From Halisarca cf. caerulea (Eukaryota; Porifera; Demospongiae; Chondrillida; Halisarcidae), in assembly GCA_963170055.1 (NCBI GenBank), contig CAUJGJ010000085.1:2682701-2746700 (forward strand): a DNA stretch of 64,000 nucleotides. The letters run 5' to 3'. The translations under genes and the position numbers were made by a program. The notes under the pieces were generated by a model that saw nothing but the letters and a program-made list of their open reading frames with translations, had not been told where the DNA came from and made no database searches. This document shows, piece after piece, positions 977 through 58,187 of this stretch. The stretch's first letter is position 1. Each line of letters opens with the position of its first letter.

Positions 977-1258
977 ATGTCTTCCGTATCGAGCTATTCT
1001 CCCAGTCCACCAACAACTCCCCGAGATTCGGAGGAATCCTCTCAAAGATTGAGTGGTGAAACCTCCCGTGATATTTCAGATATGAATAGTGTTATTGGAC
1101 AAGGAGATTCGGATGAAAAGGCCAGGCAAGAAGAATCGGATAGCAGAAATGCGGATGAGGATCAGCAAGAAGCGTTGCTTTTCGCCATTCCTCCAGTACA
1201 CCATCAATTGATGGGAGAGGGAGATTCTAATATTGTGGAATCTATGAGCGTCAGCATG
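977..1258 (+). CDS. CCDC146: CCDC146-like exon 1
   Basis: A 282-nt first coding exon (94 codons, ends in phase 0 at an ATG before donor GTATGA). It encodes a Ser/Pro/Thr-rich start (MSSVSSYSPSPP), an acidic stretch, then LLFAIPPVHHQL, which resembles the conserved N-terminal block of CCDC146. The start at 977 is preferred because the X-box lies just upstream. An in-frame ATG at 908 would add 23 residues but would leave only 7 bp to the NDUFS7 ATG. Confidence 0.82.
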
Positions 1259-4200: not shown

Positions 4201-7200
4201 TAGGATACAACGCTAGGGTATCCCATGGTTGAGGTTATAAATATAGGCTGTTGTTGGCCATTCAACTCAGACCAACAGTTAATTAATTATACTAATTATC
4301 ACTGTTAGTTGCCCTTAATGTACTAAAGTCATTATGCACCCAGTACATCTCAAATATACGCACTTCTGTCAGTGTTTTAAGCTACAGAAAATTAAAATGA
4401 CCATGCATTGAGAAACACATGTACATATGTAGGACTAATGGACATACAGTACGTACGTAGTATGTCCTGTACGTACGTATAAGAATACACATATGTACAT
4501 GTGTACAAATGTTTGTACATGCATGCATACATACACAATGATATTGTACGTACGTACGTAAATGCATGAGTAATGTTACGCATACCATCTAGTGCTAAAT
4601 TTTTGAGGAGCTTAACTTTTGCACTCTTTTTGAGGATGAGCACTGGAACGTGAAATTTACACACCGCAAGAAAATGAAACACTGTATGGTAAGTAGCAGC
4701 TGAAGGACAGACCATGAAATTTATTTTTGCGAATGTTTCAAAAGTGGCCAACCACAAAAATTTAGCTCCTTGAAAATTCAGTGCTAAATGGTATTACATG
4801 TACATATTGTATACATGTACATATTGTAATATAATGTACATACGTACGTATGTATGTAGATACGTATGTGAGTGTGGAGTTTATAACAACCACAGATATC
4901 GACCCGTCACAGACTTAGTGGTCACTTATTTAATGCTATTTTACCTGTGTATATGTATTACTTATGCAGTACTTATGTACGTACATGACAGAATGTTGAA
5001 CTCACTGTAACTGCAGTGTGAAAATGATTTAGCTCAAAGTACAGAGAGAATGGAACAGTTGGAATACGACATTAGACTGTAAGTGTGTGTAGGGAGTTGC
5101 TGCCCTTGTTTTGTGTGACATTGATGACTATCTGTCTAGATTGATGGAAGAGAAGAAAGAAGTTGAAAATGATCTACACAAGAAGCCCAAAAGAGAGGTA
5201 CGTACTATGAATTTGTTTGCTTGTGATGTCAATTGATATACACATATGTTTGTGTGTGTTTGTGTATGTACGTACTCGTACGTACATATATACAGTGAAA
5301 CTTGCTTAATACGTACCTCAAAGGGGACACAAAATCAGTACTTATTATCAGAGGTACATATGTACGTACTATCAGGGTAGGTTTATGTACATGAGGTATA
5401 CACAGGGACAGAATGAGGAGTAGTTACTGTCCAGGAGTATGTACTAAACCAGGTACTTACTAAGCAAGTTCCACTGTATGTACGTATGTAGAATATTAAG
5501 TACTGAGTTAAGCAGTGTTAGACTGGGGTAATTATTCTATGTTATTTGCCTATTTTATTATTTTACTTGCATACATACATACAGTGAAACTTGTTCAGTA
5601 TGTATGTACGTAAGTACCTGGTTTATTACAAACTCCTGGATAGTAAGTACTCCTCATATTGTCCCTGTGTATACAGACTGTCCAACATAGACACCACCCT
5701 GAATAGGGACACATATCAGGCTACAGGTTGTGGCATGTCAGTGTCTGTCAAAATCACATACATATTAAACTATTACCATAGATGGTATGCTATAACAGGC
5801 TTTAACTTTCTTCCTGTATATGCCTCAGTTGCAATAGTGACATATAAAAATGGCCACCTTTAGTGCAGTTAGCTTCAGGTCTTGAAAATATCTACTTTAC
5901 TGAACATTTTAAACTAATATTCAGTAATTTATCCCAAATAGAGACATTCAGACCTTTAATTGTGATTAAATCTGAATCAATGCTCACTCATCTGGACAAA
6001 CACCGTCCCAGTTAATACTCAGGACAGAGGCATGAAAATCAGGACACTCCCGCCTCAATCGGGATGGTTCAACAGTCTGTGTATACCTAATGTACACAAA
6101 CCAATCTTGATAGCAAGACTGAAGTAACTCTGATAATATGTCAGCATTGATTTCATGTCCTCCTTGCGGTACATACATACGTACCTACTGAGCAAGTTTT
6201 CACTGTAATCTACGTCCATTTCCTATATAATCTTGTGACCATACTAGTTTAGATCACCAAAAGTAAGCGATATCAGGCTGGACTGACTTTTTACTCCATT
6301 ACACACGATGATTTAAAATGAAGTTTGAATGTAGAGTTGTCAGCTTACGGCCATACTACACTGAATCCACCAGTTCTCATCTGATCACTGAAGTTAAGCA
6401 GTGTTAGGCTGGGTTAGTACTTGGATGGGTGACCGCCTGGAAATACCCAGTGCTGTAAGCTTTTGCCTTTTCTTTCACTGAAGTACACACATTGGTTTAA
6501 AATGACGTTTGAATGTAGAGTTGTCAGCTTACGGCCATACTACACTGAATCCACCAGTTCTCGTCTGATCACTGAAGTTAAGCAGTGTTAGGCTGGGTTA
6601 GTACTTGGATGGGTGACCGCCTGGGAATACCCAGTGCTGTAAGCTTTTGCCTTTTCTTTCACTGAAGTACACACATTGGTTTAAAATGACGTTTGAATGT
6701 AGAGTTGTCAGCTTACGCCCATACTACACTGAATCCACCAGTTCTCGTCTGATCACTGAAGTTAAGCAGTGTTAGGCTGGGTTAGTACTTGGATGGGTGA
6801 ACGCCTGGGAATACCCAGTGCTGTAAGCTTTTGCCTTTTCTTTCACTGAAGTACACACATTGGTTTAAAATGACGTTTGAATGTAGAGTTGTCAGCTTAC
6901 GGCCATACTACACTGAATCCACCAGTTCTCGTCTGATCACTGAAGTTAAGCAGTGTTAGGCTGGGTTAGTACTTGGATGGGTGACCGCCTGGGAATACCC
7001 AGTGCTGTAAGCTTTTGCCTTTTCTTTCACTGAAGTACACACATTGGTTTAAAATGACGTTTGAATGTAGAGTTGTCAGCTTACGGCCATACTACACTGA
7101 ATCCACCAGTTCTCGTCTGATCACTGAAGTTAAGCAGTGTTAGGCTGGGTTAGTACTTGGATGGGTGACCGCCTGGGAATACACAGTGCTGTAAGCTTTT

Positions 7201-10200: not shown

Positions 10201-13200
10201 CCCATACTACACTGAATCCACCATTTCTCGTCTGATCACTGAAGTTGAGCAGTGTTAGGCTGGGTTAGTACTTGGATGGGTGACCGCCTGGGAATACCCA
10301 GTGCTGTAAGCTTTTGAGTTTTTTTCCTCAAGTGCACGCATTGGTTCAAAATGGAGTTTGAATGTAGAGTTGTCAGCTTACGGCCATACTACACTGAATC
10401 CACCATTTCTCGTCTGATCACTGAAGTTAAGCAGTGTTAGGCTGGGTTAGTACTTGGATGGGTGACCGCCTGGGAATACCCAGTGCTGTAAGCTTTTGCC
10501 TTTTCTTTCACTGAAGTACACACATTGGTTTAAAATGACGTTTGAATGTAGAGTTGTCAGCTTACGGCCATACTACACTGAATCCACCATTTCTCGTCTG
10601 ATCACTGAAGTTGAGCAGTGTTAGGCTGGGTTAGTACTTGGATGGGTGACCGCCTGGGAATACCCAGTGCTGTAAGCTTTTGAGTTTTTTTCCTGAAGTG
10701 CACGCATTGGTTCAAAATTGAGTTTGAATGTAGAGTTGTCAGCTTACGGCCATACTACACTGAATCCACCAGTTCTCGTCTGATCACTGAAGTTAAGCAG
10801 TGTTAGGCTGGGTTAGTACTTGGATGGGTGACCGCCTGGGAATACCCAGTGCTGTAAGCTTTTGCCTTTTCTTTCACTGAAGTACACACATTGGTTTAAA
10901 ATGACGTTTGAATGTAGAGTTGTCAGCTTACGCCCATACTACACTGAATCCACCATTTCTCGTCTGATCACTGAAGTTGAGCAGTGTTAGGCTGGGTTAG
11001 TACTTGGATGGGTGACCGCCTGGGAATACCCAGTGCTGTAAGCTTTTGAGTTTTTTTCCTGAAGTGCACGCATTGGTTCAAAATGGAGTTTGAATGTAGA
11101 GTTGTCAGCTTACGGCCATACTACACTGAATCCACCAGTTCTCGTCTGATCACTGAAGTTAAGCAGTGTTAGGCTGGGTTAGTACTTGGATGGGTGACCG
11201 CCTGGGAATACCCAGTGCTGTAAGCTTTTGCCTTTTCTTTCACTGAAGTACACACATTGGTTTAAAATGACGTTTGAATGTAGAGTTGTCAGCTTACGGC
11301 CATACTACACTGAATCCACCATTTCTCGTCTGATCACTGAAGTTGAGCAGTGTTAGGCTGGGTTAGTACTTGGATGGGTGACCGCCTGGGAATACCCAGT
11401 GCTGTAAGCTTTTGAGTTTTTTTCCTCAAGTGCACGCATTGGTTTAAAATGGAGTTTGAATGTAGAGTTGTCAGCTTACGCCCATACTACACTGAATCCA
11501 CCAGTTCTCGTCTGATCACTGAAGTTAAGCAGTGTTAGGCTGGGTTAGTACTTGGATGGGTGACCGCCTGGGAATACCCAGTGCTGTAAGCTTTTGCCTT
11601 TTCTTTCACTGAAGTACACACATTGGTTTAAAATGACGTTTGAATGTAGAGTTGTCAGCTTACGGCCATACTACACTGAATCCACCAGTTCTCGTCTGAT
11701 CACTGAAGTTAAGCAGTGTTAGGCTGGGTTAGTACTTGGATGGGTGACCGCCTGGGAATACCCAGTGCTGTAAGCTTTTGAGTTTTTTTCCTTAAGTGCA
11801 TGCATTGGTTCAAAATGGAGTTTGAATGTAGAGTTGTCAGCTTACGGCCATACTACACTGAATCCACCATTTCTCGTCTGATCACTGAAGTTAAGCAGTG
11901 TTAGGCTGGGTTAGTACTTGGATGGGTGACCGCCTGGGAATACCCAGTGCTGTAAGCTTTTGAGTTTTTTTTTCCTGAAGTGCACGCATTGGTTCAAAAT
12001 GGAGTTTGAATGTAGAGTTGTCAGCTTACGGCCATACTACACTGAATCCACCATTTCTCGTCTGATCACTGAAGTTAAGCAGTGTTAGGCTGGGTTAGTA
12101 CTTGGATGGGTGACCGCCTGGGAATACCCAGTGCTGTAAGCTTTTGCCTTTTGTTTACTCAAGTACACGCATTGGTTTAAAATGACGTCTGAATGTAGAG
12201 TTGTCAGCTTACGGCCATACTACACTGAATCCACCATTTCTCGTCTGATCACTGAAGTTAAGCAGTGTTAGGCTGGGTTAGTACTTGGATGGGTGACCGC
12301 CTAGGAATACCCAGTGCTGTAAGCTTTTGCCTTTTCTTTCACTGAAGTTAAACAGTGTTAGGCTGGGTTAGTACTTGGATGGGTGACCGCCTGGGAATAC
12401 CCAGTGCTGTAAGCTTTTGAGTTGTTTTTCCTCAAGTGCACGCATTGGTTCAAAATGGAGTTTGAATGTAGAGTTGTCAGCTTACGGCCATACTACACTG
12501 AATCCACCAGTTCTCGTCTGATCACTGAAGTTAAGCAGTGTTAGGCTGGGTTAGTACTTGGATGGGTGACCGCCTGGGAATACCCAGTGCTGTAAGCTTT
12601 TGCCTTTTGTTTACTCAAGTACACGCATTGGTTTAAAATGACGTCTGAATGTAGAGTTGTCAGCTTACGGCCATACTACACTGAATCCACCAGTTCTCGT
12701 CTGATCACTGAAGTTAAGCAGTGTTAGGCTGGGTTAGTACTTGGATGGGTGACCGCCTGGGAATACCCAGTGCTGTAAGCTTTTGCCTTTTCTTTCACTG
12801 AAGTACACACATTGGTTTAAAATGACGTTTGAATGTAGAGTTGTCAGCTTACGGCCATACTACACTGAATCCACCAGTTCTCGTCTGATCACTGAAGTTG
12901 AGCAGTGTTAGGCTGGGTTAGTACTTGGATGGGTGACCGCCTGGGAATACCCAGTGCTGTAAGCTTTTGAGTTTTTTTCCTTAAGTGCATGCATTTGTTC
13001 AAAATGGAGTTTGAATGTAGAGTTGTCAGCTTACGGCCATACTACACTGAATCCACCATTTCTCGTCTGATCACTGAAGTTAAGCAGTGTTAGGCTGGGT
13101 TAGTACTTGGATGGGTGACCGCCTGGGAATACCCAGTGCTGTAAGCTTTTGAGTTTTTTTTCCTGAAGTGCACGCATTGGTTCAAAATGGAGTTTGAATG

Positions 13201-16200
13201 TAGAGTTGTCAGCTTACGGCCATACTACACTGAATCCACCAGTTCTCGTCTGATCACTGAAGTTAAGCAGTGTTAGGCTGGGTTAGTACTTGGATGGGTG
13301 ACCGCCTGGGAATACCCAGTGCTGTAAGCTTTTGCCTTTTCTTTCACTGAAGTACACACATTGGTTTAAAATGACGTTTGAATGTAGAGTTGTCAGCTTA
13401 CGGCCATACTACACTGAATCCACCAGTTCTCGTCTGATCACTGAAGTTAAGCAGTGTTAGGCTGGGTTAGTACTTGGATGGGTGACCGCCTGGGAATACC
13501 CAGTGCTGTAAGCTTTTGAGTTTTTTTTCCTGAAGTGCACGCATTGGTTCAAAATGGAGTTTGAATGTAGAGTTGTCAGCTTACGGCCATACTACACTGA
13601 ATCCACCAGTTCTCGTCTGATCACTGAAGTTAAGCAGTGTTAGGCTGGGTTAGTACTTGGATGGGTGACCGCCTGGGAATACGCAGTGCTGTAAGCTTTT
13701 GCCTTTTGTTTACTCAAGTACACGCATTGGTTTAAAATGACGTCTGAATGTAGAGTTGTCAGCTTACGGCCATACTACACTGAATCCACCATTTCTCGTC
13801 TGATCACTGAAGTTAAGCAGTGTTAGGCTGGGTTAGTACTTGGATGGGTGACCGCCTGGGAATACCCAGTGCTGTAAGCTTTTGCCTTTTCTTTCACTGA
13901 AGTTAAGCAGTGTTAGGCTGGGTTAGTACTTGGATGGGTGACCGCCTGGGAATACCCAGTGCTGTAAGCTTTTGAGTTGTTTTTCCTCAAGTGCACGCAT
14001 TGGTTCAAAATGGAGTTTGAATGTAGAGTTGTCAGCTTACGGCCATACTACACTGAATCCACCATTTCTCGTCTGATCACTGAAGTTAAGCAGTGTTAGG
14101 CTGGGTTAGTACTTGGATGGGTGACCGCCTGGGAATACCCAGTGCTGTAAGCTTTTGCCTTTTGTTTACTCAAGTACACGCATTGGTTTAAAATGACGTC
14201 TGAATGTAGAGTTGTCAGCTTACGGCCATACTACACTGAATCCACCAGTTCTCGTCTGATCACTGAAGTTAAGCAGTGTTAGGCTGGGTTAGTACTTGGA
14301 TGGGTGACCGCCTGGGAATACCCAGTGCTGTAAGCTTTTGCCTTTTCTTTCACTGAAGTTAAGCAGTGTTAGGCTGGGTTAGTACTTGGATGGGTGACCG
14401 CCTGGGAATACCCAGTGCTGTAAGCTTTTGAGTTTTTTTCCTTAAGTGCAAGCATTGGTTCAAAATGGAGTTTGAATGTAGAGTTGTCAGCTTACGGCCA
14501 TACTACACTGAATCCACCAGTTCTCGTCTGATCACTGAAGTTAAGCAGTGTTAGGCTGGGTTAGTACTTGGATGGGTGACCGCCTGGGAATACCCAGTGC
14601 TGTAAGCTTTTGAGTTTTTTTTCCTGAAGTGCACGCATTGGTTCAAAATGGAGTTTGAATGTAGAGTTGTCAGCTTACGGCCATACTACACTGAATCCAC
14701 CAGTTCTCGTCTGATCACTGAAGTTAAGCAGTGTTAGGCTGGGTTAGTACTTGGATGGGTGACCGCCTGGGAATACCCAGTGCTGTAAGCTTTTGCCTTT
14801 TGTTTACTCAAGTACACGCATTGGTTTAAAATGACGTCTGAATGTAGAGTTGTCAGCTTACGGCCATACTACACTGAATCCACCAGTTCTCGTCTGATCA
14901 CTGAAGTTAAGCAGTGTTAGGCTGGGTTAGTACTTGGATGGGTGACCGCCTGGGAATACCCAGTGCTGTAAGCTTTTGCCTTTTCTTTCACTGAAGTTAA
15001 GCAGTGTTAGGCTGGGTTAGTACTTGGATGGGTGACCGCCTGGGAATACCCAGTGCTGTAAGCTTTTGAGTTGTTTTTCCTCAAGTGCACGCATTGGTTC
15101 AAAATGGAGTTTGAATGTAGAGTTGTCATTTTACGGCCATACTACACTGAATCCACCAGTTCTCGTCTGATCACTGAAGTTAAGCAGTGTTAGGCTGGGT
15201 TAGTACTTGGATGGGTGACCGCCTGGGAATACCCAGTGCTGTAAGCTTTTGCCTTTTGTTTACTCAAGTACACGCATTGGTTTAAAATGACGTCTGAATG
15301 TAGAGTTGTCAGCTTACGGCCATACTACACTGAATCCACCAGTTCTCGTCTGATCACTGAAGTTAAGCAGTGTTAGGCTGGGTTAGTACTTGGATGGGTG
15401 ACCGCCTGGGAATACCCAGTGCTGTAAGCTTTTGCCTTTTCTTTCACTGAAGTTAAGCAGTGTTAGGCTGGGTTAGTACTTGGATGGGTGACCGCCTGGG
15501 AATACCCAGTGCTGTAAGCTTTTGAGTTTTTTTCCTGAAGTGCACGCATTGGTTCAAAATGACGTTTGAATGTAGAGTTGTCAGCTTACGGCCATACTAC
15601 ACTGAATCCACCAGTTCTCGTCTGATCACTGAAGTTAAGCAGTGTTAGGCTGGGTTAGTACTTGGATGGGTGACCGCCTGGGAATACCCAGTGCTGTAAG
15701 CTTTTGAGTTGTTTTTCCTCAAGTGCACGCATTGGTTCAAAATGGAGTTTGAATGTAGAGTTGTCAGCTTACGGCCATACTACACTGAATCCACCAGTTC
15801 TCGTCTGATCACTGAAGTTAAGCAGTGTTAGGCTGGGTTAGTACTTGGATGGGTGACCGCCTGGGAATACCCAGTGCTGTAAGCTTTTGAGTTTTTTTTC
15901 CTGAAGTGCACGCATTGGTTCAAAATGGAGTTTGAATGTAGAGTTGTCAGCTTACGGCCATACTACACTGAATCCACCAGTTCTCGTCTGATCACTGAAG
16001 TTAAGCAGTGTTAGGCTGGGTTAGTACTTGGATGGGTGACCGCCTGGGAATACCCAGTGCTGTAAGCTTTTGCCTTTTGTTTACTCAAGTACACGCATTG
16101 GTTTAAAATGACGTCTGAATGTAGAGTTGTCAGCTTACGGCCATACTACACTGAATCCACCAGTTCTCGTCTGATCACTGAAGTTAAGCAGTGTTAGGCT

Positions 16201-19200
16201 GGGTTAGTACTTGGATGGGTGACCGCCTGGGAATACCCAGTGCTGTAAGCTTTTGCCTTTTCTTTCACTGAAGTTAAGCAGTGTTAGGCTGGGTTAGTAC
16301 TTGGATGGGTGACCGCCTGGGAATACCCAGTGCTGTAAGCTTTTGAGTTGTTTTTCCTCAAGTGCACGCATTGGTTCAAAATGGAGTTTGAATGTAGAGT
16401 TGTCATTTTACGGCCATACTACACTGAATCCACCAGTTCTCGTCTGATCACTGAAGTTAAGCAGTGTTAGGCTGGGTTAGTACTTGGATGGGTGACCGCC
16501 TGGGAATACCCAGTGCTGTAAGCTTTTGCCTTTTGTTTACTCAAGTACACGCATTGGTTTAAAATGACGTCTGAATGTAGAGTTGTCAGCTTACGGCCAT
16601 ACTACACTGAATCCACCAGTTCTCGTCTGATCACTGAAGTTAAGCAGTGTTAGGCTGGGTTAGTACTTGGATGGGTGACCGCCTGGGAATACCCAGTGCT
16701 GTAAGCTTTTGCCTTTTCTTTCACTGAAGTTAAGCAGTGTTAGGCTGGGTTAGTACTTGGATGGGTGACCACCTGGGAATACCCAGTGCTGTAAGCTTTT
16801 GAGTTTTTTTCCTGAAGTGCACGCATTGGTTCAAAATGACGTTTGAATGTAGAGTTGTCAGCTTACGGCCATACTACACTGAATCCACCAGTTCTCGTCT
16901 GATCACTGAAGTTAAGCAGTGTTAGGCTGGGTTAGTACTTGGATGGGTGACCGCCTGGGAATACCCAGTGCTGTAAGCTTTTGAGTTGTTTTTCCTCAAG
17001 TGCACGCATTGGTTCAAAATGGAGTTTGAATGTAGAGTTGTCAGCTTACGGCCATACTACACTGAATCCACCAGTTCTCGTCTGATCACTGAAGTTAAGC
17101 AGTGTTAGGCTGGGTTAGTACTTGGATGGGTGACCGCCTGGGAATACCCAGTGCTGTAAGCTTTTGAGTTTTTTTTCCTGAAGTGCACGCATTGGTTCAA
17201 AATGGAGTTTGAATGTAGAGTTGTCAGCTTACGGCCATACTACACTGAATCCACCATTTCTCGTCTGATCACTGAAGTTAAGCAGTGTTAGGCTGGGTTA
17301 GTACTTGGATGGGTGACCGCCTGGGAATACACAGTGCTGTAAGCTTTTGCCTTTTGTTTACTCAAGTACACGCATTGGTTTAAAATGACGTTTGAATGTA
17401 GAGTTGTCAGCTTACGGCCATACTACACTGAATCCACCAGTTCTCGTCTGATCACTGAAGTTAAGCAGTGTTAGGCTGGGTTAGTACTTGGATGGGTGAC
17501 CGCCTGGGAATACCCAGTGCTGTAAGCTTTTGCCTTTTCTTTCACTGAAGTACACACATTGGTTTAAAATGACGTTTGAATGTAGAGTTGTCAGCTTACG
17601 CCCATACTACACTGAATCCACCATTTCTCGTCTGATCACTGAAGTTGAGCAGTGTTAGGCTGGGTTAGTACTTGGATGGGTGACCGCCTGGGAATACCCA
17701 GTGCTGTAAGCTTTTGAGTTTTTTTCCTCAAGTGCACGCATTGGTTCAAAATGGAGTTTGAATGTAGAGTTGTCAGCTTACGGCCATACTACACTGAATC
17801 CACCAGTTCTCGTCTGATCACTGAAGTTAAGCAGTGTTAGGCTGGGTTAGTACTTGGATGGGTGACCGCCTGGGAATACCCAGTGCTGTAAGCTTTTGCC
17901 TTTTCTTTCACTGAAGTACACACATTGGTTTAAAATGACGTTTGAATGTAGAGTTGTCAGCTTACGGCCATACTACACTGAATCCACCAGTTCTCGTCTG
18001 ATCACTGAAGTTCAGCAGTGTTAGGCTGGGTTAGTACTTGGATGGGTGACCGCCTGGGAATACCCAGTGCTGTAAGCTTTTGAGTTTTTTTCCTTAAGTG
18101 CAGGCATTGGTTCAAAATGGAGTTTGAATGTAGAGTTGTCAGCTTACGGCCATACTACACTGAATCCACCATTTCTCGTCTGATCACTGAAGTTAAGCAG
18201 TGTTAGGCTGGGTTAGTACTTGGATGGGTGACCGCCTGGGAATACCCAGTGCTGTAAGCTTTTGAGTTTTTTTTCCTGAAGTGCACGCATTGGTTCAAAA
18301 TGGAGTTTGAATGTAGAGTTGTCAGCTTACGGCCATACTACACTGAATCCACCAGTTCTCGTCTGATCACTGAAGTTAAGCAGTGTTAGGCTGGGTTAGT
18401 ACTTGGATGGGTGACCGCCTGGGAATACCCAGTGCTGTAAGCTTTTGCCTTTTCTTTCACTGAAGTTAAGCAGTGTTAGGCTGGGTTAGTACTTGGATGG
18501 GTGACCGCCTGGGAATACCCAGTGCTGTAAGCTTTTGAGTTTTTTTTCCTGAAGTGCACGCATTCGTTCAAAATGGAGTTTGAATGTAGAGTTGTCAGCT
18601 TACGGCCATACTACACTGAATCCACCATTTCTCGTCTGATCACTGAAGTTAAGCAGTGTTAGGCTGGGTTAGTACTTGGATGGGTGACCGCCTGGGAATA
18701 CACAGTGCTGTAAGCTTTTGCCTTTTGTTTACTCAAGTACACGCATTGGTTTAAAATGACGTTTGAATGTAGAGTTGTCAGCTTACGGCCATACTACACT
18801 GAATCCACCAGTTCTCGTCTGATCACTGAAGTTAAGCAGTGTTAGGCTGGGTTAGTACTTGGATGGGTGACCGCCTGGGAATACCCAGTGCTGTAAGCTT
18901 TTGCCTTTTCTTTCACTGAAGTACACACATTGGTTTAAAATGACGTTTGAATGTAGAGTTGTCAGCTTACGCCCATACTACACTGAATCCACCATTTCTC
19001 GTCTGATCACTGAAGTTGAGCAGTGTTAGGCTGGGTTAGTACTTGGATGGGTGACCGCCTGGGAATACCCAGTGCTGTAAGCTTTTGAGTTTTTTTCCTC
19101 AAGTGCACGCATTGGTTCAAAATGGAGTTTGAATGTAGAGTTGTCAGCTTACGGCCATACTACACTGAATCCACCAGTTCTCGTCTGATCACTGAAGTTA

Positions 19201-22200
19201 AGCAGTGTTAGGCTGGGTTAGTACTTGGATGGTTGACCGCCTGGGAATACCCAGTGCTGTAAGCTTTTGCCTTTTCTTTCACTGAAGTACACACATTGGT
19301 TTAAAATGACGTTTGAATGTAGAGTTGTCAGCTTACGGCCATACTACACTGAATCCACCAGTTCTCGTCTGATCACTGAAGTTCAGCAGTGTTAGGCTGG
19401 GTTAGTACTTGGATGGGTGACCGCCTGGGAATACCCAGTGCTGTAAGCTTTTGAGTTTTTTTCCTTAAGTGCAGGCATTGGTTCAAAATGGAGTTTGAAT
19501 GTAGAGTTGTCAGCTTACGGCCATACTACACTGAATCCACCATTTCTCGTCTGATCACTGAAGTTAAGCAGTGTTAGGCTGGGTTAGTACTTGGATGGGT
19601 GACCGCCTGGGAATACCCAGTGCTGTAAGCTTTTGAGTTTTTTTTCCTGAAGTGCACGCATTGGTTCAAAATGGAGTTTGAATGTAGAGTTGTCAGCTTA
19701 CGGCCATACTACACTGAATCCACCAGTTCTCGTCTGATCACTGAAGTTAAGCAGTGTTAGGCTGGGTTAGTACTTGGATGGGTGACCGCCTGGGAATACC
19801 CAGTGCTGTAAGCCTTTGCCTTTTCTTTCACTGAAGTTAAGCAGTGTTAGGCTGGGTTAGTACTTGGATGGGTGACCGCCTGGGAATACCCAGTGCTGTA
19901 AGCTTTTGAGTTGTTTTTCCTCAAGTGCACGCATTGGTTCAAAATGGAGTTTGAATGTAGAGTTGTCAGCTTACGGCCATACTACACTGAATCCACCATT
20001 TCTCGTCTGATCACTGAAGTTAAGCAGTGTTAGGCTGGGTTAGTACTTGGATGGGTGACCGCCTGGGAATACCCAGTGCTGTAAGCTTTTGCCTTTTCTT
20101 TCACTGAAGTACACACATTGGTTTAAAATGACGTTTGAATGTAGAGTTGTCAGCTTACGGCCATACTACACTGAATCCACCAGTTCTCGTCTGATCACTG
20201 AAGTTAAGCAGTGTTAGGCTGGGTTAGTACTTGGATGGGTGACCGCCTGGGAATACCCAGTGCTGTAAGCTTTTGAGTTTTTTTCCTTAAGTGCATGCAT
20301 TGGTTCAAAATGGAGTTTGAATGTAGAGTTGTCAGCTTACGGCCATACTACACTGAATCCACCATTTCTCGTCTGATCACTGAAGTTAAGCAGTGTTAGG
20401 CTGGGTTAGTACTTGGATGGGTGACCGCCTGGGAATACCCAGTGCTGTAAGCTTTTGAGTTTTTTTTCCTGAAGTGCACGCATTGGTTCAAAATAGAGTT
20501 TGAATGTAGAGTTGTCAGCTTACGGCCATACTACACTGAATCCACCAGTTCTCGTCTGATCACTGAAGTTAAGCAGTGTTAGGCTGGGTTAGTACTTGGA
20601 TGGGTGACCGCCTGGGAATACCCAGTGCTGTAAGCTTTTGCCTTTTCTTTCACTGAAGTACACACATTGGTTTAAAATGACGTTTGAATGTAGAGTTGTC
20701 AGCTTACGGCCATACTACACTGAATCCACCAGTTCTCGTCTGATCACTGAAGTTGAGCAGTGTTAGGCTGGGTTAGTACTTGGATGGGTGACCGCCTGGG
20801 AATACCCAGTGCTGTAAGCTTTTGAGTTTTTTTCCTTAAGTGCATGCATTGGTTCAAAATGGAGTTTGAATGTAGAGTTGTCAGCTTACGGCCATACTAC
20901 ACTGAATCCACCAGTTCTCGTCTGATCACTGAAGTTAAGCAGTGTTAGGCTGGGTTAGTACTTGGATGGGTGACCGCCTGGGAATACCCAGTGCTGTAAG
21001 CTTTTGAGTTTTTTTTCCTGAAGTGCACGCATTGGTTCAAAATGGAGTTTGAATGTAGAGTTGTCAGCTTACGGCCATACTACACTGAATCCACCAGTTC
21101 TCGTCTGATCACTGAAGTTAAGCAGTGTTAGGCTGGGTTAGTACTTGGATGGGTGACCGCCTGGGAATACACAGTGCTGTAAGCTTTTGCCTTTTGTTTA
21201 CTCAAGTACACGCATTGGTTTAAAATGACGTCTGAATGTAGAGTTGTCAGCTTACGGCCATACTACACTGAATCCACCATTTCTCGTCTGATCACTGAAG
21301 TTAAGCAGTGTTAGGCTGGGTTAGTACTTGGATGGGTGACCGCCTGGGAATACCCAGTGCTGTAAGCTTTTGCCTTTTCTTTCACTGAAGTTAAGCAGTG
21401 TTAGGCTGGGTTAGTACTTGGATGGGTGACCGCCTGGGAATACCCAGTGCTGTAAGCTTTTGAGTTGTTTTTCCTCAAGTGCACGCATTGGTTCAAAATG
21501 GAGTTTGAATGTAGAGTTGTCATTTTACGGCCATACTACACTGAATCCACCAGTTCTCGTCTGATCACTGAAGTTAAGCAGTGTTAGGCTGGGTTAGTAC
21601 TTGGATGGGTGACCGCCTGGGAATACCCAGTGCTGTAAGCTTTTGCCTTTTGTTTACTCAAGTACATGCATTGGTTTAAAATGACGTCTGAATGTAGAGT
21701 TGTCAGCTTACGGCCATACTACACTGAATCCACCATTTCTCGTCTGATCACTGAAGTTGAGCAGTGTTAGGCTGGGTTAGTACTTGGATGGGTGACCGCC
21801 TGGGAATACCCAGTGCTGTAAGCTTTTGAGTTTTTTTCCTGAAGTGCACGCATTGGTTCAAAATGGAGTTTGAATGTAGAGTTGTCAGCTTACGGCCATA
21901 CTACACTGAATCCACCAGTTCTCGTCTGATCACTGAAGTTAAGCAGTGTTAGGCTGGGTTAGTACTTGGATGGGTGACCGCCTGGGAATACCCAGTGCTG
22001 TAAGCTTTTGAGTTTTTTTCCTCAGTGCACGCATTGGTTCAAAATGGAGTTTGAATGTAGAGTTGTCAGCTTACGGCCATACTACACTGAATCCACCATT
22101 TCTCGTCTGATCACTGAAGTTAAGCAGTGTTAGGCTGGGTTAGTACTTGGATGGGTGACCGCCTGGGAATACCCAGTGCTGTAAGCTTTTGAGTTTTTTT

Positions 22201-25200
22201 CCTCAAGTGCACGCATTGGTTCAAAATGGAGTTTGAATGTAGAGTTGTCAGCTTACGGCCATGCTACACTGAATCCACCAGTTCTCGTCTGATCACTGAA
22301 GTTAAGCAGTGTTAGGCTGGGTTAGTACTTGGATGGGTGACCGCCTGGGAATACCCAGTGCTGTAAGCTTTTGCCTTTTCTTTCACTGAAGTACACACAT
22401 TGGTTTAAAATGACGTTTGAATGTAGAGTTGTCAGCTTACGGCCATACTACACTGAATCCACCAGTTCTCGTCTGACCACTGAAGTTAAGCAGTGTTAGG
22501 CTGGGTTAGTACTTGGATGGGTGACCGCCTGGGAATACCCAGTGCTGTAAGCTTTTGAGTTTTTTTCCTGAAGTGCATGCATTGGTTCAAAATGGAGTTT
22601 GAATGTAGAGTTGTCAGCTTACGGCCATACTACACTGAATCCACCATTTCTCGTCTGATCACTGAAGTTAAGCAGTGTTAGGCTGGGTTAGTACTTGGAT
22701 GGGTGACCGCCTGGGAATACCCAGTGCTGTTAGCTTTTGAGTTTTTTTTCCTGAAGTGCACGCATTGGTTCAAAATGGAGTTTGAATGTAGAGTTGTCAG
22801 CTTACGGCCATACTACACTGAATCCACCATTTCTCATCTGATCACAGAAGTTAAGCAGTGTTAGGCTGGGTTAGTACTTGGATGGGTGACCGCCTGGGAA
22901 TACCCAGTGCTGTAAGCTTTTGCCTTTTGTTTACTCAAGTACACGCATTGGTTTAAAATGACGTCTGAATGTAGAGTTGTCAGCTTACGGCCATACTACA
23001 CTGAATCCACCAGTTCTCGTCTGATCACTGAAGTTAAGCAGTGTTAGGCTGGGTTAGTACTTGGATGGGTGACCGCCTAGGAATACCCAGTGCTGTAAGC
23101 TTTTGCCTTTTCTTTCACTGAAGTTAAGCAGTGTTAGGCTGGGTTAGTACTTGGATGGGTGACCACCTGGGAATACACAGTGCTGTAAGCTTTTGAGTTG
23201 TTTTTCCTCAAGTGCACGCATTGGTTCAAAATGGAGTTTGAATGTAGAGTTGTCAGCTTACGGCCATGCTACACTGAATCCACCAGTTCTCGTCTGATCA
23301 CTGAAGTTAAGCAGTGTTAGGCTGGGTTAGTACTTGGATGGGTGACCGCCTGGGAATACCCAGTGCTGTAAGCTTTTGCCTTTTCTTTCACTGAAGTACA
23401 CACATTGGTTTAAAATGACGTTTGAATGTAGAGTTGTCAGCTTACGGCCATACTACACTGAATCCACCAGTTCTCGTCTGACCACTGAAGTTAAGCAGTG
23501 TTAGGCTGGGTTAGTACTTGGATGGGTGACCGCCTGGGAATACCCAGTGCTGTAAGCTTTTGAGTTTTTTTCCTGAAGTGCATGCATTGGTTCAAAATGG
23601 AGTTTGAATGTAGAGTTGTCAGCTTACGGCCATACTACACTGAATCCACCATTTCTCGTCTGATCACTGAAGTTAAGCAGTGTTAGGCTGGGTTAGTACT
23701 TGGATGGGTGACCGCCTGGGAATACCCAGTGCTGTAAGCTTTTGAGTTTTTTTTCCTGAAGTGCACGCATTGGTTCAAAATGGAGTTTGAATGTAGAGTT
23801 GTCAGCTTACGGCCATACTACACTGAATCCACCATTTCTCATCTGATCACAGAAGTTAAGCAGTGTTAGGCTGGGTTAGTACTTGGATGGGTGACCGCCT
23901 GGGAATACCCAGTGCTGTAAGCTTTTGCCTTTTGTTTACTCAAGTACACGCATTGGTTTAAAATGACGTCTGAATGTAGAGTTGTCAGCTTACGGCCATA
24001 CTACACTGAATCCACCAGTTCTCGTCTGATCACTGAAGTTAAGCAGTGTTAGGCTGGGTTAGTACTTGGATGGGTGACCGCCTAGGAATACCCAGTGCTG
24101 TAAGCTTTTGCCTTTTCTTTCACTGAAGTTAAGCAGTGTTAGGCTGGGTTAGTACTTGGATGGGTGACCACCTGGGAATACACAGTGCTGTAAGCTTTTG
24201 AGTTGTTTTTCCTCAAGTGCACGCATTGGTTCAAAATGGAGTTTGAATGTAGAGTTGTCAGCTTACGGCCATACTACACTGAATCCACCATTTCTCGTCT
24301 GATCACTGAAGTTAAGCAGTGTTAGGCTGGGTTAGTACTTGGATGGGTGACCGCCTGGGAATACCCAGTGCTGTAAGCTTTTGCCTTTTGTTTACTCAAG
24401 TACATGCATTGGTTTAAAATGACGTCTGAATGTAGAGTTTTCAGCTTACGGCCATACTACACTGAATCCACCAGTTCTCGTCTGATCACTGAAGTTAAGC
24501 AGTGTTAGGCTGGGTTAGTACTTGGATGGGTGACCGCCTGGGAATACCCAGTGCTGTAAGCTTTTGCCTTTTCTTTCACTGAAGTTAAGCAGTGTTAGGC
24601 TGGGTTAGTACTTGGATGGGTGACCGCCTGGGAATACCCAGTGCTGTAAGCTTTTGAGTTTTTTTTCCTGAAGTGCACGCATTGGTTCAAAATGGAGTTT
24701 GAATGTAGAGTTGTCAGCTTATGGCCATACTACACTGAATCCACCAGTTCTCGTCTGATCACTGAAGTTAAGCAGTGTTAGGCTGGGTTAGTACTTGGAT
24801 GGGTGACCGCCTGGGAATACCCAGTGCTGTAAGCTTTTGCCTTTTGTTTACTCAAGTACACGCATTGGTTTAAAATGACGTCTGAATGTAGAGTTGTCAG
24901 CTTACGGCCATACTACACTGAATCCACCAGTTCTCGTCTGATCACTGAAGTTAAGCAGTGTTAGGCTGGGTTAGTACTTGGATGGGTGACCGCCTGGGAA
25001 TACCCAGTGCTGTAAGCTTTTGCCTTTTCTTTCACTGAAGTTAAGCAGTGTTAGGCTGGGTTAGTACTTGGATGGGTGACCGCCTGGGAATACCCAGTGC
25101 TGTAAGCTTTTGAGTTGTTTTTCCTCAAGTGCACGCATTGGTTCAAAATGGAGTTTGAATGTAGAGTTGTCAGCTTACGGCCATACTACACTGAATCCAC

Positions 25201-34200: not shown

Positions 34201-37200
34201 ATGTAGAGTTGTCAGCTTACGGCCATACTACACTGAATCCACCAGTTCTCGTCTGATCACTGAAGTTAAGCAGTGTTAGGCTGGGTTAGTACTTGGATGG
34301 GTGACCGCCTGGGAATACCCAGTGCTGTAAGCTTTTGCCTTTTGTTTACTCAAGTACACGCATTGGTTTAAAATGACGTCTGAATGTAGAGTTGTCAGCT
34401 TACGGCCATACTACACTGAATCCACCAGTTCTCGTCTGATCACTGAAGTTAAGCAGTGTTAGGCTGGGTTAGTACTTGGATGGGTGACCGCCTGGGAATA
34501 CCCAGTGCTGTAAGCTTTTGCCTTTTCTTTCACTGAAGTTAAGCAGTGTTAGGCTGGGTTAGTACTTGGATGGGTGACCGCCTGGGAATACCCAGTGCTG
34601 TAAGCTTTTGCCTTTTCTTTCACTGAAGTTAAGCAGTGTTAGGCTGGGTTAGTACTTGGATGGGTGACCGCCTGGGAATACCCAGTGCTGTAAGCTTTTG
34701 AGTTGTTTTTCCTCAAGTGCACGCATTGGTTCAAAATGGAGTTTGAATGTAGAGTTGTCAGCTTACGGCCATACTACACTGAATCCACCATTTCTCGTCT
34801 GATCACTGAAGTTAAGCAGTGTTAGGCTGGGTTAGTACTTGGATGGGTGACCGCCTGGGAATACCCAGTGCTGTAAGCTTTTGCCTTTTGTTTACTCAAG
34901 TACACGCATTGGTTTAAAATGACGTCTGAATGTAGAGTTGTCAGCTTACGGCCATACTACACTGAATCCACCAGTTCTCGTCTGATCACTGAAGTTAAGC
35001 AGTGTTAGGCTGGGTTAGTACTTGGATGGGTGACCGCCTGGGAATACCCAGTGCTGTAAGCTTTTGCCTTTTCTTTCACTGAAGTTAAGCAGTGTTAGGC
35101 TGGGTTAGTACTTGGATGGGTGACCGCCTGGGAATACCCAGTGCTGTAAGCTTTTGCCTTTTCTTTCACTGAAGTACACACATTGGTTTAAAATGACGTT
35201 TGAATGTAGAGTTGTCAGCTTACGGCCATACTACACTGAATCCACCAGTTCTCGTCTGATCACTGAAGTTAAGCAGTGTTAGGCTGGGTTAGTACTTGGA
35301 TGGGTGACCGCCTGGGAATACCCAGTGCTGTAAGCTTTTGAGTATTTTTCCTCAAGTGCACGCATTGGTTCAAAATGGAGTTTGAATGTAGAGTTGTCAG
35401 CTTACGGCCATACTACACTGAATCCACCAGTTCTCGTCTGATCACTGAAGTTAAGCAGTGTTAGGCTGGGTTAGTACTTGGATGGGTGACCGCTTGGGAA
35501 TACCCAGTGCTGTAAGCTTTTGCCTTTTGTTTACTCAAGTACACGCATTGGTTTAAAATGACGTCTGAATGTAGAGTTGTCAGCTTACGGCCATACTACA
35601 CTGAATCCACCAGTTCTCGTCTGATCACTGAAGTTAAGCAGTGTTAGGCTGGGTTAGTACTTGGATGGGTGACCGCCTGGGAATACCCAGTGCTGTAAGC
35701 TTTTGCCTTTTGTTTACTCAAGTACACGCATTGGTTTAAAATGACGTCTGAATGTAGAGTTGTCAGCTTACGGCCATACTACACTGAATCCACCAGTTCT
35801 CGTCTGATCACTGAAGTTAAGCAGTGTTAGGCTGGGTTAGTACTTGGATGGGTGACCGCCTGGGAATACCCAGTGCTGTAAGCTTTTGCCTTTTCTTTCA
35901 CTGAAGTTAAGCAGTGTTAGGCTGGGTTAGTACTTGGATGGGTGACCGCCTGGGAATACCCAGTGCTGTAAGCTTTTGCCTTTTCTTGCACTGAAGTTAA
36001 GCAGTGTTAGGCTGGGTTAGTACTTGGATGGGTGACCGCCTGGGAATACCCAGTGCTGTAAGCTTTTGAGTTGTTTTTCCTCAAGTGCACGCATTGGTTC
36101 AAAATGGAGTTTGAATGTAGAGTTGTCAGCTTACGGCCATACTACACTGAATCCACCATTTCTCGTCTGATCACTGAAGTTAAGCAGTGTTAGGCTGGGT
36201 TAGTACTTGGATGGGTGACCGCCTGGGAATACCCAGTGCTGTAAGCTTTTGCCTTTTGTTTACTCAAGTACACGCATTGGTTTAAAATGACGTCTGAATG
36301 TAGAGTTGTCAGCTTACGGCCATACTACACTGAATCCACCAGTTCTCGTCTGATCACTGAAGTTAAGCAGTGTTAGGCTGGGTTAGTACTTGGATGGGTG
36401 ACCGCCTGGGAATACCCAGTGCTGTAAGCTTTTGCCTTTTCTTTCACTGAAGTTAAGCAGTGTTAGGCTGGGTTAGTACTTGGATGGGTGACCGCCTGGG
36501 AATACCCAGTGCTGTAAGCTTTTGCCTTTTCTTTCACTGAAGTACACACATTGGTTTAAAATGACGTTTGAATGTAGAGTTGTCAGCTTACGGCCATACT
36601 ACACTGAATCCACCAGTTCTCGTCTGATCACTGAAGTTAAGCAGTGTTAGGCTGGGTTAGTACTTGGATGGGTGACCGCCTGGGAATACCCAGTGCTGTA
36701 AGCTTTTGAGTTTTTTTCCTTAAGTGCATGCATTGGTTCAAAATGGAGTTTGAATGTAGAGTTGTCAGCTTACGGCCATACTACACTGAATCCACCAGTT
36801 CTCGTCTGATCACTGAAGTTAAGCAGTGTTAGGCTGGGTTAGTACTTGGATGGGTGACCGCCTGGGAATACCCAGTGCTGTAAGCTTTTGCCTTTTGTTT
36901 ACTCAAGTACACGCATTGGTTTAAAATGACGTCTGAATGTAGAGTTGTCAGCTTACGGCCATACTACACTGAATCCACCAGTTCTCGTCTGATCACTGAA
37001 GTTAAGCAGTGTTAGGCTGGGTTAGTACTTGGATGGGTGACCGCCTGGGAATACCCAGTGCTGTAAGCTTTTGAGTTTTTTTCCTGAAGTGCACGCATTG
37101 GTTCAAAATGGAGTTTGAATGTAGAGTTGTCAGCTTACGGCCATACTACACTGAATCCACCAGTTCTCGTCTGATCACTGAAGTTAAGCAGTGTTAGGCT

Positions 37201-40200
37201 GGGTTAGTACTTGGATGGGTGACCGCCTGGGAATACACAGTGCTGTAAGCTTTTGCCTTTTCTTTCACTGAAGTTAAGCAGTGTTAAGCTGGGTTAGTAC
37301 TTGGATGGGTGACCGCCTGGGAATACACAGTGCTGTAAGCTTTTGAGTTTTTTTTCCTGAAGTGCACGCATTGGTTCAAAATGGAGTTTGAATGTAGAGT
37401 TGTCAGCTTACGGCCATACTACACTGAATCCACCAGTTCTCGTCTGATCACTGAAGTTAAGCAGTGTTAGGCTGGGTTAGTACTTGGATGGGTGACCGCC
37501 TGGGAATACCCAGTGCTGTAAGCTATTGAGTTTTTTTTCCTGAAGTGCACGCATTGGTTCAAAATGGAGTTTGAATGTAGAGTTGTCAGCTTACGGCCAT
37601 ACTACACTGAATCCACCAGATCTCGTCTGATCACTGAAGTTAAGCAGTGTTAGGTTGGGTTAGTACTTGGATGGGTGACCGCCTGGGAATACACAGTGCT
37701 GTAAGCTTTTGCCTTTTGTTTACTCAAGTACACGCATTGGTTTAAAATGACGTCTGAATGTAGAGTTGTCAGCTTACGGCCATACTACACTGAATCCACC
37801 AGTTCTCGTCTGATCACTGAAGTTAAGCAGTGTTAGGCTGGGTTAGTACTTGGATGGGTGACCGCCTGGGAATACCCAGTGCTGTAAGCTTTTGCCTTTT
37901 CTTTCACTGATGTACACACATTGGTTTAAAATGACGTTTGAATGTAGAGTTGTCAGCTTACGGCCATACAACACTGAATCCACCAGTTCTCGTCTGATCA
38001 CTGAAGTTAAGCAGTGTTAGGCTGGGTTAGTACTTGGATGGGTGACCGCCTGGGAATACCCAGTGCTGTAAGCTTTTGCCTTTTCTTTCACTGAAGTACA
38101 CACATTGGTTTAAAATGACGTTTGAATGTAGAGTTGTCAGCTTACGGCCATACTACACTGAATCCACCAGTTCTCGTCTGATCACTGAAGTTAAGCAGTG
38201 TTAGGCTGGGTTAGTACTTGGATGGGTGACCGCCTGGGAATACCCAGTGCTGTAAGCTTTTGAGTTTTTTTTCCTGAAGTGCACGCATTGGTTCAAAATG
38301 ACGTTTGAATGTAGAGTTGTCAGCTTACGGCCATACTACACTGAATCCACCAGTTCTCGTCTGATCACTGAAGTTAAGCAGTGTTAGGCTGGGTTAGTAC
38401 TTGGATGGGTGACCGCCTGGGAATACGCAGTGCTGTAAGCTTTTGCCTTTTGTTTACTCAAGTAAACGCATTGGTTTAAAATGACGTTTGAATGTAGAGT
38501 TGTCAGCTTACGGCCATACTACACTGAATCCACCATTTCTCGTCTGATCACTGAAGTTAAGCAGTGTTAGGCTGGGTTAGTACTTGGATGGGTGACCGCC
38601 TGGGAATACCCAGTGCTGTAAGCTTTTGAGTTTTTTTTCCTGAAGTGCACGCATTGGTTCAAAATGGAGTTTGAATGTAGAGTTGTCAGCTTACGGCCAT
38701 ACTACACTGAATCCACCAGTTCTCGTCTGATCACTGAAGTTAAGCAGTGTTAGGCTGGGTTAGTACTTGGATGGGTGACCGCCTGGGAATACCCAGTGCT
38801 GTAAGCTTTTGCCTTTTGTTTACTCAAGTACACGCATTGGTTTAAAATGACGTTTGAATGTAGAGTTGTCAGCTTACGGCCATACTACACTGAATCCACC
38901 AGTTCTCGTCTGATCACTGAAGTTAAGCAGTGTTAGGCTGGGTTAGTACTTGGATGGGTGACCGCCTGGGAATACCCAGTGCTGTAAGCTTTTGCCTTTT
39001 CTTTCACTGAAGTACACACATTGGTTTAAAATGACGTTTGAATGTAGAGTTGTCAGCTTACGGCCATACTACACTGAATCCACCATTTCTCGTCTGATCA
39101 CTGAAGTTAAGCAGTGTTAGGCTGGGTTAGTACTTGGATGGGTGACCGCCTGGGAATACCCAGTGCTGTAAGCTTTTGAGTTTTTTTCCTGAAGTGCACG
39201 CATTGGTTCAAAATTGAGTTTGAATGTAGAGTTGTCAGCTTACGGCCATACTACACTGAATCCACCATTTCTCGTCTGATCACTGAAGTTAAGCAGTGTT
39301 AGGCTGGGTTAGTACTTGGATGGGTGACCGCCTGGGAATACCCAGTGCTGTAAGCTTTTGCCTTTTCTTTCACTGAAGTACACACATTGGTTTAAAATGA
39401 CGTTTGAATGTAGAGTTGTCAGCTTACGGCCATACTACACTGAATCCACCAGTTCTCGTCTGATCACTGAAGTTAAGCAGTGTTAGGCTGGGTTAGTACT
39501 TGGATGGGTGACCGCCTGGGAATACACAGTGCTGTAAGCTTTTGCCTTTTGTTTACTCAAGTACACGCATTGGTTTAAAATGACGTCTTAATGTAGAGTT
39601 GTCAGCTTACGGCCATACTACACTGAATCCACCATTTCTCGTCTGATCACTGAAGTTAAGCAGTGTTAGGCTGGGTTAGTACTTGGATGGGTGACCGCCT
39701 GGGAATACACAGTGCTGTAAGCTTTTGCCTTTTTTTTACTCAAGTACACGCATTGGTTTAAAATGACGTCTGAATGTAGAGTTGTCAGCTTACGGCCATA
39801 CTACACTGAATCCACCAGTTCTCGTCTGATCACTGAAGTTAAGCAGTGTTAGGCTGGGTTAGTACTTGGATGGGTGACCGCCTGGGAATACCCAGTGCTG
39901 TAAGCTTTTGCCTTTTCTTTCACTGAAGTACACACATTGGTTTAAAATGATGTTTGAATGTAGAGTTGTCAGCTTACGGCCATACTACACTGAATCCACC
40001 ATTTCTCGTCTGATCACTGAAGTTGAGCAGTGTTAGGCTGGGTTAGTACTTGGATGGGTGACCGCCTGGGAATACCCAGTGCTGTAAGCTTTTGAGTTTT
40101 TTTCCTGAAGTGCACGCATTGGTTCAAAATTGAGTTTGAATGTAGAGTTTTCAGCTTACGGCCATACTACACTGAATCCACCAGTTCTCGTCTGATCACT

Positions 40201-55200: not shown

Positions 55201-58115
55201 TCTCATCTGATCACTAAAGTTAAGCAGTGTTAGGCTGGGTTAGTACTTGGATGGGTGACCGCCTGGGAATACCCAGTGCTGTAAGCTTTTGCCTTTTCTT
55301 TCACTGAAGTACACACATTGGTTTAAAATGAAGTTTGAATGTAGAGTTGTCAGCTTACGGCCATACTACACTGAATCCACCAGTTCTCGTCTGATCACTG
55401 AAGTTAAGCAGTGTTAGGCTGGGTTAGTACTTGGATGGGTGACCGCCTGGGAATACCCAGTGCTGTAAGCTTTTGTTTTTTCTTTCACTGAAGTACACAC
55501 ATTGGTTTAAAATGAAGTTTGAATGTAGAGTTGTCAGCTTACGGCCATACTACACTGAATCCACCAGTTCTCATCTGATCACTAAAGTTAAGCAGTGTTA
55601 GGCTGGGTTAGTACTTGGATGGGTGACCGCCTGGGAATACCCAGTGCTGTAAGCTTTTGCTTTTTCTTTCACTGAAGTACACACATTGGTTTAAAATGAC
55701 GTTTGAATGTAGAGTTGTCAGCTTACAGCCATACTACACTGAATCCACTAGTTCTCGTATTACTATCTTTTTGAGTCAATATTTCATGATTTCTTTCAAT
55801 CATAAAGACCATGAATAGACATAAATATAAGAAAACTAGACTGTACCATGCGTCATATAACCCTGGTATACATACCTCAGTATGTCTATACCAGGCATGT
55901 CCTAACTGCTTATGCATAATTCTATACATTTTGTGCAACATACGTAAGCTGTAATGTATATACACTAGCCATTTTGTTCTTGCATCATCTCTACATAACC
56001 ATGACCTGTTATCCTAGTCTCGTACCCAACCGCTTCTGCTGGCCGCCAATTTTTGTTGGGTAGAATAAAATGGCAGCCGATTGAAGGGCTGGGTACAAGA
56101 CCAGGCCTGTACACAGGGGGTTGGGGTTCAAGGGGTTCGGACGAACCCCCCTAAATGGAGCCCCATAGTTTTACACACAGCACTCTATTAGTACATTACC
56201 TAGCCAAGCCTAGGCATATCACTAATAATGAAACAAAAATCACCCAAATCTGGGATATCAGCTATAAAATCTTAGTATAACCTTAAGCTTAGTTAAAATG
56301 TGAAGTTTCTATATAGTTTCGACCATGTACCTTGTTTTCCAGCAGCGGATTTGAGGTGATGACGAGCGGCCATGATTATAGATGACATCTCTTCACACCT
56401 TGTTTTCCAGCAGCAGATTTTAGGTGATGACGAGTGGCCATGATTATAGATGACATCTTTTCACACCTCAATTGCATCATTGTTTAGCGATCCAAATGCC
56501 AATAACATGTACATAGCTGAAGTGCTGTTTTAGACACATTATACAATTACAGACTTTGTTACAAGTTGAGGAATACTATGCTGCAACAAAAGTCATCCTT
56601 AAACTGTTGCTGAAGGTATGAAAAAGCCGTAAATAATTGACTTTGTTTTGAAAATTCGCTCATGTAACCCCCTTTTGGGATTCCTGCGTACAGGCCTGAA
56701 GACTACTGTTATCCCTACTTATAGAGTACTACCGTACCCCATAATGATATATGTGTACAGTATGTGTGTAGATGTATTAATGTCAAGCATCTATGTAGGT
56801 ATGTAATTTGTCATGTTTATGTTAATACTGATGTACGTAGTACAATACGTATGTATGAACATGATTTGCAGGACATTGAACGGAAAATTCATGAGATAAC
56901 GTCTGAGATAGAAGATTTACAATATTCTCTGAAGAAAGTAAGTTACCAGTACCAACTGTATGTCTTGGCATAGCTGTCGTGTGAAGTCTGGTGACATGCT
57001 GCTTGTGTGTACATATGTCTATCACATGCACATACGTACGTACATTTGCATTTGTACATATACGTATATGAATTTCAGTGTGCCAGGGGCAATGTGCTCA
57101 TGAACATACGGACATACATACGTACTTAAGGATACATTCTTTCACACATGCCCCTCTTGTTTATCACATGGTTATACGTACATACATACAGTACCTTTAT
57201 ATAGCCTACATTGGGGCTATTGCAATATTAGAGCCTGTATATACGTACGTAGTCTGGCATAGCCAACTCATTCCTGCTCGGCCATTTTTGGAGACTGATG
57301 TCACCGAAAATGGCCAAGCGGGAATGGGTTGGCTACGCCAGACTAGTATATATGTACGTATGCTTGTGTGCTCCTATCCAGACCACAGAAGAAGCTACTC
57401 AGCTGAAATCTGATGTGAAAGCTCAACAGGAAAGGATTGACAATGTCAGGACAGAGCTGGTTGATCTGGCCAGGGCTGAGGACAAGCTTAAGGTGTTTAT
57501 GTGCATTTATATACAGTATAGTATTTGATAATGATACATACTGTAGCTTGTACATACTGAAGTATTTACATACATACATATGAACATGTGAATATGAGTG
57601 TTACAAAGACAAACATCCGTATCTATAGCAAGTGACATGTACGTATTAGTTACCTACAGTACAGTATGCAATTACATACATGTGTGTGCATATGACAGTG
57701 CATAAGGAATCGTTTGTGCAAGATTTTGGTAGTTGTGTCTGTAATAACAAGTGCATAGTATGCACATACGTACGTAAGTAGTCTAGTGTAGTGCTGTTAA
57801 TCTGCTTTCAATGTGCACATGTACGTACATATGTATGTGTACTGTGCATGCATAGGATGATCTGGTGAAAGCTAGAACTGGGCCCCAGGTTATAGCCAAG
57901 GAGATTGATACACTGAGGAAAGACATCATGTGAGTTATGTCAGTACTCACCTCTGCCTCATGCTGCGTCATTGCTGGTCTATAAACGTAACATGAAGCTA
58001 CGTACATGTCTATATACAGTATGTATGTATGTACAGTACATATTTTCACTTCTGCACAGTGGGGCTGAGAATGAAAAATTAGAGCAGGAAGAGCAGATGA
58101 GAATAGCGGACCAGA

Positions 58116-58187
<72 letters not shown>

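Follow-up and report, generated by a model that had tools for sequence, protein, structure and literature searches.

Can a whole array of 5S ribosomal RNA (rRNA) genes reside in an intron of a protein-coding gene, and how would the two be expressed together? Large ribosomal DNA (rDNA) arrays are usually viewed as separate, gene-poor territory. Such territory is stated for two nematodes in excerpts of PMC8961926. The question is raised by a stretch of 64,000 nucleotides from the sponge Halisarca cf. caerulea (C81:2682701-2746700, hereafter the window), which belongs to a surveyed genome of 194.5 Mb in 454 contigs with masked stretches read as N. In this window, a tandem array of 5S genes was found within intron 6 of a gene for a CCDC146/MBO2-type ciliary protein, and RNA polymerase II (Pol II) would have to cross ~255 RNA polymerase III (Pol III) genes to make one host mRNA.

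A 5S rDNA array within an intron of a ciliary gene

The features on which the nesting depends are as follows, in window coordinates.

5140..5197, + strand: host exon 6, ending in phase 0, followed by donor GTACGT
5198..56871, + strand: host intron 6, 51,674 bp, which carries the 5S array
56872..56937, + strand: host exon 7, starting in phase 0
6289..55758, + strand: tandem 5S rDNA array, with the first 5S at 6343 and the last a 38-nt fragment ending at 55758
6895..7013, + strand: 5S gene with the array consensus, 119 nt (Rfam RF00001, 114.5 bits)
7014..7078, + strand: example of a spacer between two 5S genes, with T runs followed by TTTAAAA at positions -31 to -25 relative to the next 5S
12339..37342, + strand: part of the array with the 30 half copies found in the blastn census (5S positions 43/44-120, 90-bp step)

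The host gene was modeled by hand from splice sites and the open frame across the window and a downstream stretch (L030). Its frame of 996 codons, distributed over 28 exons and 27 introns, contains no stop and extends from 977 to 69186 in window-plus-L030 coordinates. Eighteen exons lie wholly inside the window, exon 19 reaches one base beyond it and nine are in L030; exons 3, 21 and 24 were placed at neighbouring AG/GT sites, the first-chosen sites having broken the frame. The donor of intron 6 at 5197 (GTACGTAC) and the acceptor before 56872 (TTTGCAG) are both in phase 0. The original prediction, that exons 6 and 7 join in frame and that the array is nested in a single intron of the host, therefore holds in the 28-exon model. 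Lying within an intron of a gene whose frame appears intact, the array has the properties expected of a nested (intronic) gene.

The array was surveyed by blastn within the window (E up to 1e-5). A total of 286 5S copies or fragments were detected between 6343 and 55758, none of them on the minus strand: 253 full copies (one with a 17-base gap), 2 aligned over positions 4-120, 30 half copies (43/44-120) and one 38-nt fragment of the 3' end. Both the predicted copy number of about 255 (253 full copies plus the 2 over 4-120) and the predicted sense orientation relative to the host gene were thus recovered, although 255 is the copy number of the assembly and may be off. Rfam reported 257 matches above the gathering score in the window, and all of the 150 inspected were RF00001 on the + strand. 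Start-to-start steps were 183 bp (124 times), 184 bp (81), 182 bp (47), 90 bp (30), 181 bp (2) and 166 bp (1). Three main spacer types alternate along the array (88 B, 76 A and 55 C, with 36 unclassed by the three motifs), and 30 short spacers precede the half copies, which were found only between 12339 and 37342. The largest exact repeats, of 1,281, 1,042 and 912 bp at steps of 1,282, 1,277 and 1,368 bp, suggest block duplication by unequal exchange. Homology to the array starts near 6289 and breaks off within a 5S gene at 55758. Approximately 1.1 kb of non-array intron is left on each side, and the intron would measure ~2.2 kb without the array. Inspection of the junctions by eye revealed no clear target-site duplication.

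Tandem arrays are classic assembly traps, and the two flanks might have been misjoined through a collapsed or foreign array. However, they carry the halves of one gene in order, orientation and frame, each with ~1.1 kb of non-array intron, and no exact repeat in the array exceeds 1,281 bp, so that the units could be ordered by long reads. A second host copy lacking the array was not found in a genome search with residues 194-996, in which all 20 of 20 matches fell in the host gene on C81. We regard a misjoin as extremely unlikely.

The host protein matched CFAP58 chains in PDB (E 6.5e-26, query residues 101-890) and the Pfam family CFAP58_CC (47.4 bits). A separate CFAP58-like gene was identified on C258 by three exon matches (best 125.7 bits), and no host exon reached the threshold in that search. 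A 117-aa piece of the C258 gene matched CFAP58 in PDB at 2.3e-31, compared to 9e-4 for an approximately corresponding host piece of 122 aa. Because CFAP58 is a separate gene, the host was assigned as a CCDC146/MBO2-type paralogue, in agreement with the CCDC146-like name it had been given beforehand. The C-terminal tail of the host presumably resembles that of human CCDC146. The host protein, a 996-aa CFAP58 relative, recalls the CCDC146/MBO2-CFAP58 pair of motile cilia; MBO2/CCDC146 and FAP58/CCDC147 form a heterodimer according to excerpts of PMC11151096.

It is also conceivable that the array broke the host in two, each half being a gene of its own or a relic. The length of intron 6, 51,674 bp, is 31-fold that of the next longest intron and far outside the 61-1670 bp range of the other 26, which might be taken this way. 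However, the donor, the acceptor and the phase are intact, no stop occurs in the 996 codons across both sides, and the CFAP58 alignment over 101-890 includes the junction after residue 211, although it is uncertain right there. A broken host is, in our estimate, very unlikely.

Signs of function in the array

Gene and spacer parts of the units differed markedly in variation. Among 226 aligned complete units, mean heterozygosity was 0.0122 in the 119 gene columns and 0.106 in the 64 spacer columns, an 8.7-fold difference. Minor variants above 5% were present in 4 of 119 gene columns versus 15 of 64 spacer columns (Fisher p = 5e-5), and any variant in 36 of 119 versus 32 of 64 (p = 0.01), but units and spacer types share descent, columns and copies are not independent, and these p values are too small. 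The 119-nt consensus was matched exactly by 115 of 255 copies. The A, IE and C internal blocks were all exact in 213 of 255 copies, and TTTT was present just downstream in 254. A box at -31 was found in 252 of 255 copies, either as TTTAAAA (137) or as TTCAAAA (115). In the array consensus, 33 of the 34 model pairs are formed; the copies thus have the sequence and secondary structure of RF00001 together with internal promoter blocks and a T-run terminator. The array CpG ratio (0.448) fell between those of the two flanks (0.605 and 0.335) and gave no sign of unusual methylation decay; the array-type 5S contains 3 CpG and the scattered gene C2a, described below, contains 5. Because the gene columns vary less than the spacer and the promoter blocks and T run are kept, the array looks functional; judged by its sequence, it does not look dead.

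A second, scattered type of 5S genes

An exact 27-base core of the 5S gene occurred 266 times in the genome, 259 times in the window and seven times scattered on C2 (three), C37, C308, C172 and C409. No other 5S array was found genome-wide with this exact core pattern, which arrays with a changed core or in masked stretches would escape. The array in the window is the only intact 5S array found in the genome. In the Rfam scan of the genome, scores were obtained for 47 of 4559 candidates. Damaged 5S copies were present on C409 (59.0 bits) and C402 (57.1 bits), and a small decayed cluster of array-type 5S was detected on C350 (102, 92.7, 60.5 and 44.3 bits). The C350 cluster (L035 4465-5211) is tandem, in part at steps of ~182 bp, and its spacer has diverged; it may be a relic or a daughter of the array. 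The exact 27-base array-type pattern had no matches in genome_contigs and none in viral_contigs, as expected for a eukaryote. The 45S rDNA, located by an 18S motif, was observed on C21 and C175 with ~7.04 kb between 18S motifs, and none of the 266 5S-core matches was at these 45S loci, masked stretches being unseen. A silicatein query returned 26 matches in the genome. In the three active-site pieces inspected, one in L046 and two in L050, the motif was the cysteine one of cathepsin L instead of the serine of silicatein, and these matches do not demonstrate a sponge with silicatein.

New here is a second 5S type, represented beyond the window by six full scattered genes (three on C2 and one each on C37, C308 and C172) that differ from the array type. 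The scattered loci are L032 3773-7808, L033 4878-4996, L034 4869-4987 and L036 4896-5014. The three C2 genes are in mixed orientation ~2 kb apart, and long T runs follow the scattered genes, as judged by eye. Between C2a and the array consensus there are 11 differences over 119 positions, 10 of them in paired columns. Positions that tell the types apart include T3, T15, A18, T60 and A116 in the array type, replaced by C3, C15, G18, C60 and G116 in the scattered type. With 68 of the 119 positions paired, the chance of at least 10 of 11 is 0.02. Two-sided compensatory changes were found at four pairs (3-116, 15-64, 18-60 and 19-59). When the 11 changes were placed at random in 200,000 trials, four two-sided pairs never arose and three arose in 33 trials. 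In an alignment of seven sequences, pairing is kept in 98.7% of cells and two-sided changes occur at four pairs, and only 1 of 500 shuffles reached either value; such changes were absent from six slid structures of the same alignment. The two types share the -31 box: TTTAAAA within one mismatch was present at exactly -31 in five of the six scattered genes, whose flanks were otherwise unlike the array spacer by eye. At the 3' end, the scattered type has GTAGGT where the array type has CTGTAAGC. By their sequence features, both types look like selected 5S genes that evolved apart. Since the second type is present at other loci, the cell may not depend on the array alone for 5S rRNA. The second type, with its compensatory changes in helices I and II, also offers a test of ribosome heterogeneity.

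Alternatively, the scattered genes may be the real 5S genes and the array a 5S-derived satellite that yields no 5S rRNA. The Rfam scores of the scattered genes are just as high (best 116 bits, versus 114.5-114.9 bits for the array), their T runs are longer by eye, and 140 of 255 array copies deviate from the consensus. On the other hand, gene columns are more conserved than the spacer, the changes between the types are compensatory, and the internal blocks, the terminator and the -31 box are kept in most array copies. The decayed relatives on C350 illustrate the state of copies under weak selection. The satellite explanation is disfavoured by the gene/spacer variation and the compensatory changes, and we give it only a slim chance.

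Proposed transcription of the array and of its host

Intronic Pol III units are known (PMC3509611, excerpts). Searches of the open-access literature aimed at intronic 5S arrays brought up, in titles and abstract openings, no description of an entire array so placed. Among the nearest cases are a MIR, a short interspersed element, in intron 1 of Polr3e, and the 5S cluster of Caenorhabditis. The former, described in excerpts of PMC5358760, likewise has a Pol III unit inside a Pol II gene intron, but it is one antisense unit, whereas the sponge intron contains an essential rRNA gene in ~255 sense-oriented units. The latter, as presented in excerpts of PMC8961926, is likewise tandem, comparable in size (assembled in strain N2 as up to 167 consecutive units) and composed of varied units. 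In contrast, the rDNA loci of Caenorhabditis consist of rDNA and other repeats only and are depleted of protein-coding sequence, whereas here a protein gene spans the array.

The explanation that we favour, with a probability of roughly 0.68, is that the only intact array found, which looks active, grew in a former ~2-kb intron of a CCDC146/MBO2-type gene, and that sense read-through by Pol II is tolerated, perhaps eased by a division of labour between the two 5S types. Pol III would transcribe each 5S gene from its internal A, IE and C blocks, aided by the TATA-like box at -31, and would stop at the T run past the gene. With the ciliary gene on, Pol II would traverse the entire array in the direction of the 5S genes, and splicing would remove the array with intron 6. 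Tolerance may have three reasons. First, a sense Pol III unit was without measurable disturbance of its host in one test: excerpts of PMC5358760 describe a Pol III unit placed in an EGFP intron, which reduced host expression by 20-30% when antisense and left it without measurable change when sense. Strong interference would thus not be expected by default from units in the sense orientation. Second, the array unit lacks the poly(A) signals AATAAA and ATTAAA, with 0 in the 49,416 bp of array (6343-55758) versus 6 and 8, respectively, in the other 14.6 kb of the window. Third, unequal exchange in the intron could alter the 5S copy number with the exons untouched. The scattered type would supply 5S rRNA from other loci, so that not every cell would have to make use of the array.

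Several points weigh against tolerated read-through of an active array. The EGFP test was made with a single MIR element rather than with hundreds of 5S genes, and the lack of poly(A) signals counts as one event instead of hundreds. The CTGTAAGC at the end of array-type 5S genes is a plausible decoy 5' splice site; GTAAGC was counted 282 times in the array and lies at the 5S 3' ends in the copies read. G31T was found in 62 of 226 units and C105A in 21 of 226, each of which breaks a pair, and part of the array may therefore be inactive. Pair 25-52 is broken in the array type and kept in the scattered type, and of the five covariation measures, that for further pair types was no better than in shuffles (433 of 500). 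To these may be added the shared descent of the units and the weak stretch of the CFAP58 alignment at the exon 6/7 junction, mentioned above. Finally, the division of labour is only an analogy, drawn from vertebrates with maternal and somatic 5S genes. Excerpts of PMC5513064 give 2330 maternal (chromosome 4) and 12 somatic (chromosome 18) genes for zebrafish, and 20,000 and 400 for Xenopus. The sponge is similar in having a large set of one type and few genes of another elsewhere (255 versus six full scattered genes plus damaged ones), but differs in that the large set is inside an intron of a protein gene; the likeness is one of arrangement, known in the sponge from sequence.

If the analogy is carried further, the intronic array might be a germline or egg-stage 5S type that is used while the ciliary gene is off, with the scattered genes serving somatic cells, ciliated ones included. 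Use by Pol III and read-through by Pol II would then exclude each other in time, and a developmental switch could result from the nesting. We consider this version possible but unlikely.

Another explanation is regulatory coupling, in which the ciliary gene takes its output or timing from Pol III occupancy or from the length of the array, with changes in copy number acting as a rheostat. Intron 6 is 3.1 times as long as the rest of the host gene span. An antisense intronic Pol III unit can interfere with its host (PMC5358760), and a Caenorhabditis rDNA reporter, although a single one, was active in the soma and silent in the germline and early embryo (PMC8961926), both according to excerpts. 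However, the array copies are in sense, the orientation without measurable effect in the EGFP test, and such coupling appears quite unlikely. Natural variation in array length, if present, would be an allelic series of intron length in which Pol II/Pol III interference is testable without engineering.

Other features of the host gene

The remaining host exons in the window, all from the gene model and on the + strand, are as follows.

977..1258, + strand: exon 1, with start codon ATG at 977
2413..2495, + strand: exon 2
3479..3530, + strand: exon 3
3892..3987, + strand: exon 4
5017..5078, + strand: exon 5
57382-57492, 57856-57929, 58060-58117 and 58458-58553, + strand: exons 8-11
58625-58698, 59090-59188, 59513-59600 and 59765-59860, + strand: exons 12-15
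60691-60861, 62532-62620 and 63121-63202, + strand: exons 16-18
63798..64000, + strand: exon 19, plus one base past the window end; exons 20-28 follow in L030

Other host introns contain repeats that were noticed by eye. Host intron 15 carries a minisatellite at 59930-60540 with units like CACACCTCCAGCACACACTGCACCCAA, and palindromic inverted repeats resembling miniature inverted-repeat transposable elements were observed in host introns at 2850-2930, 3182-3285 and 57246-57345.

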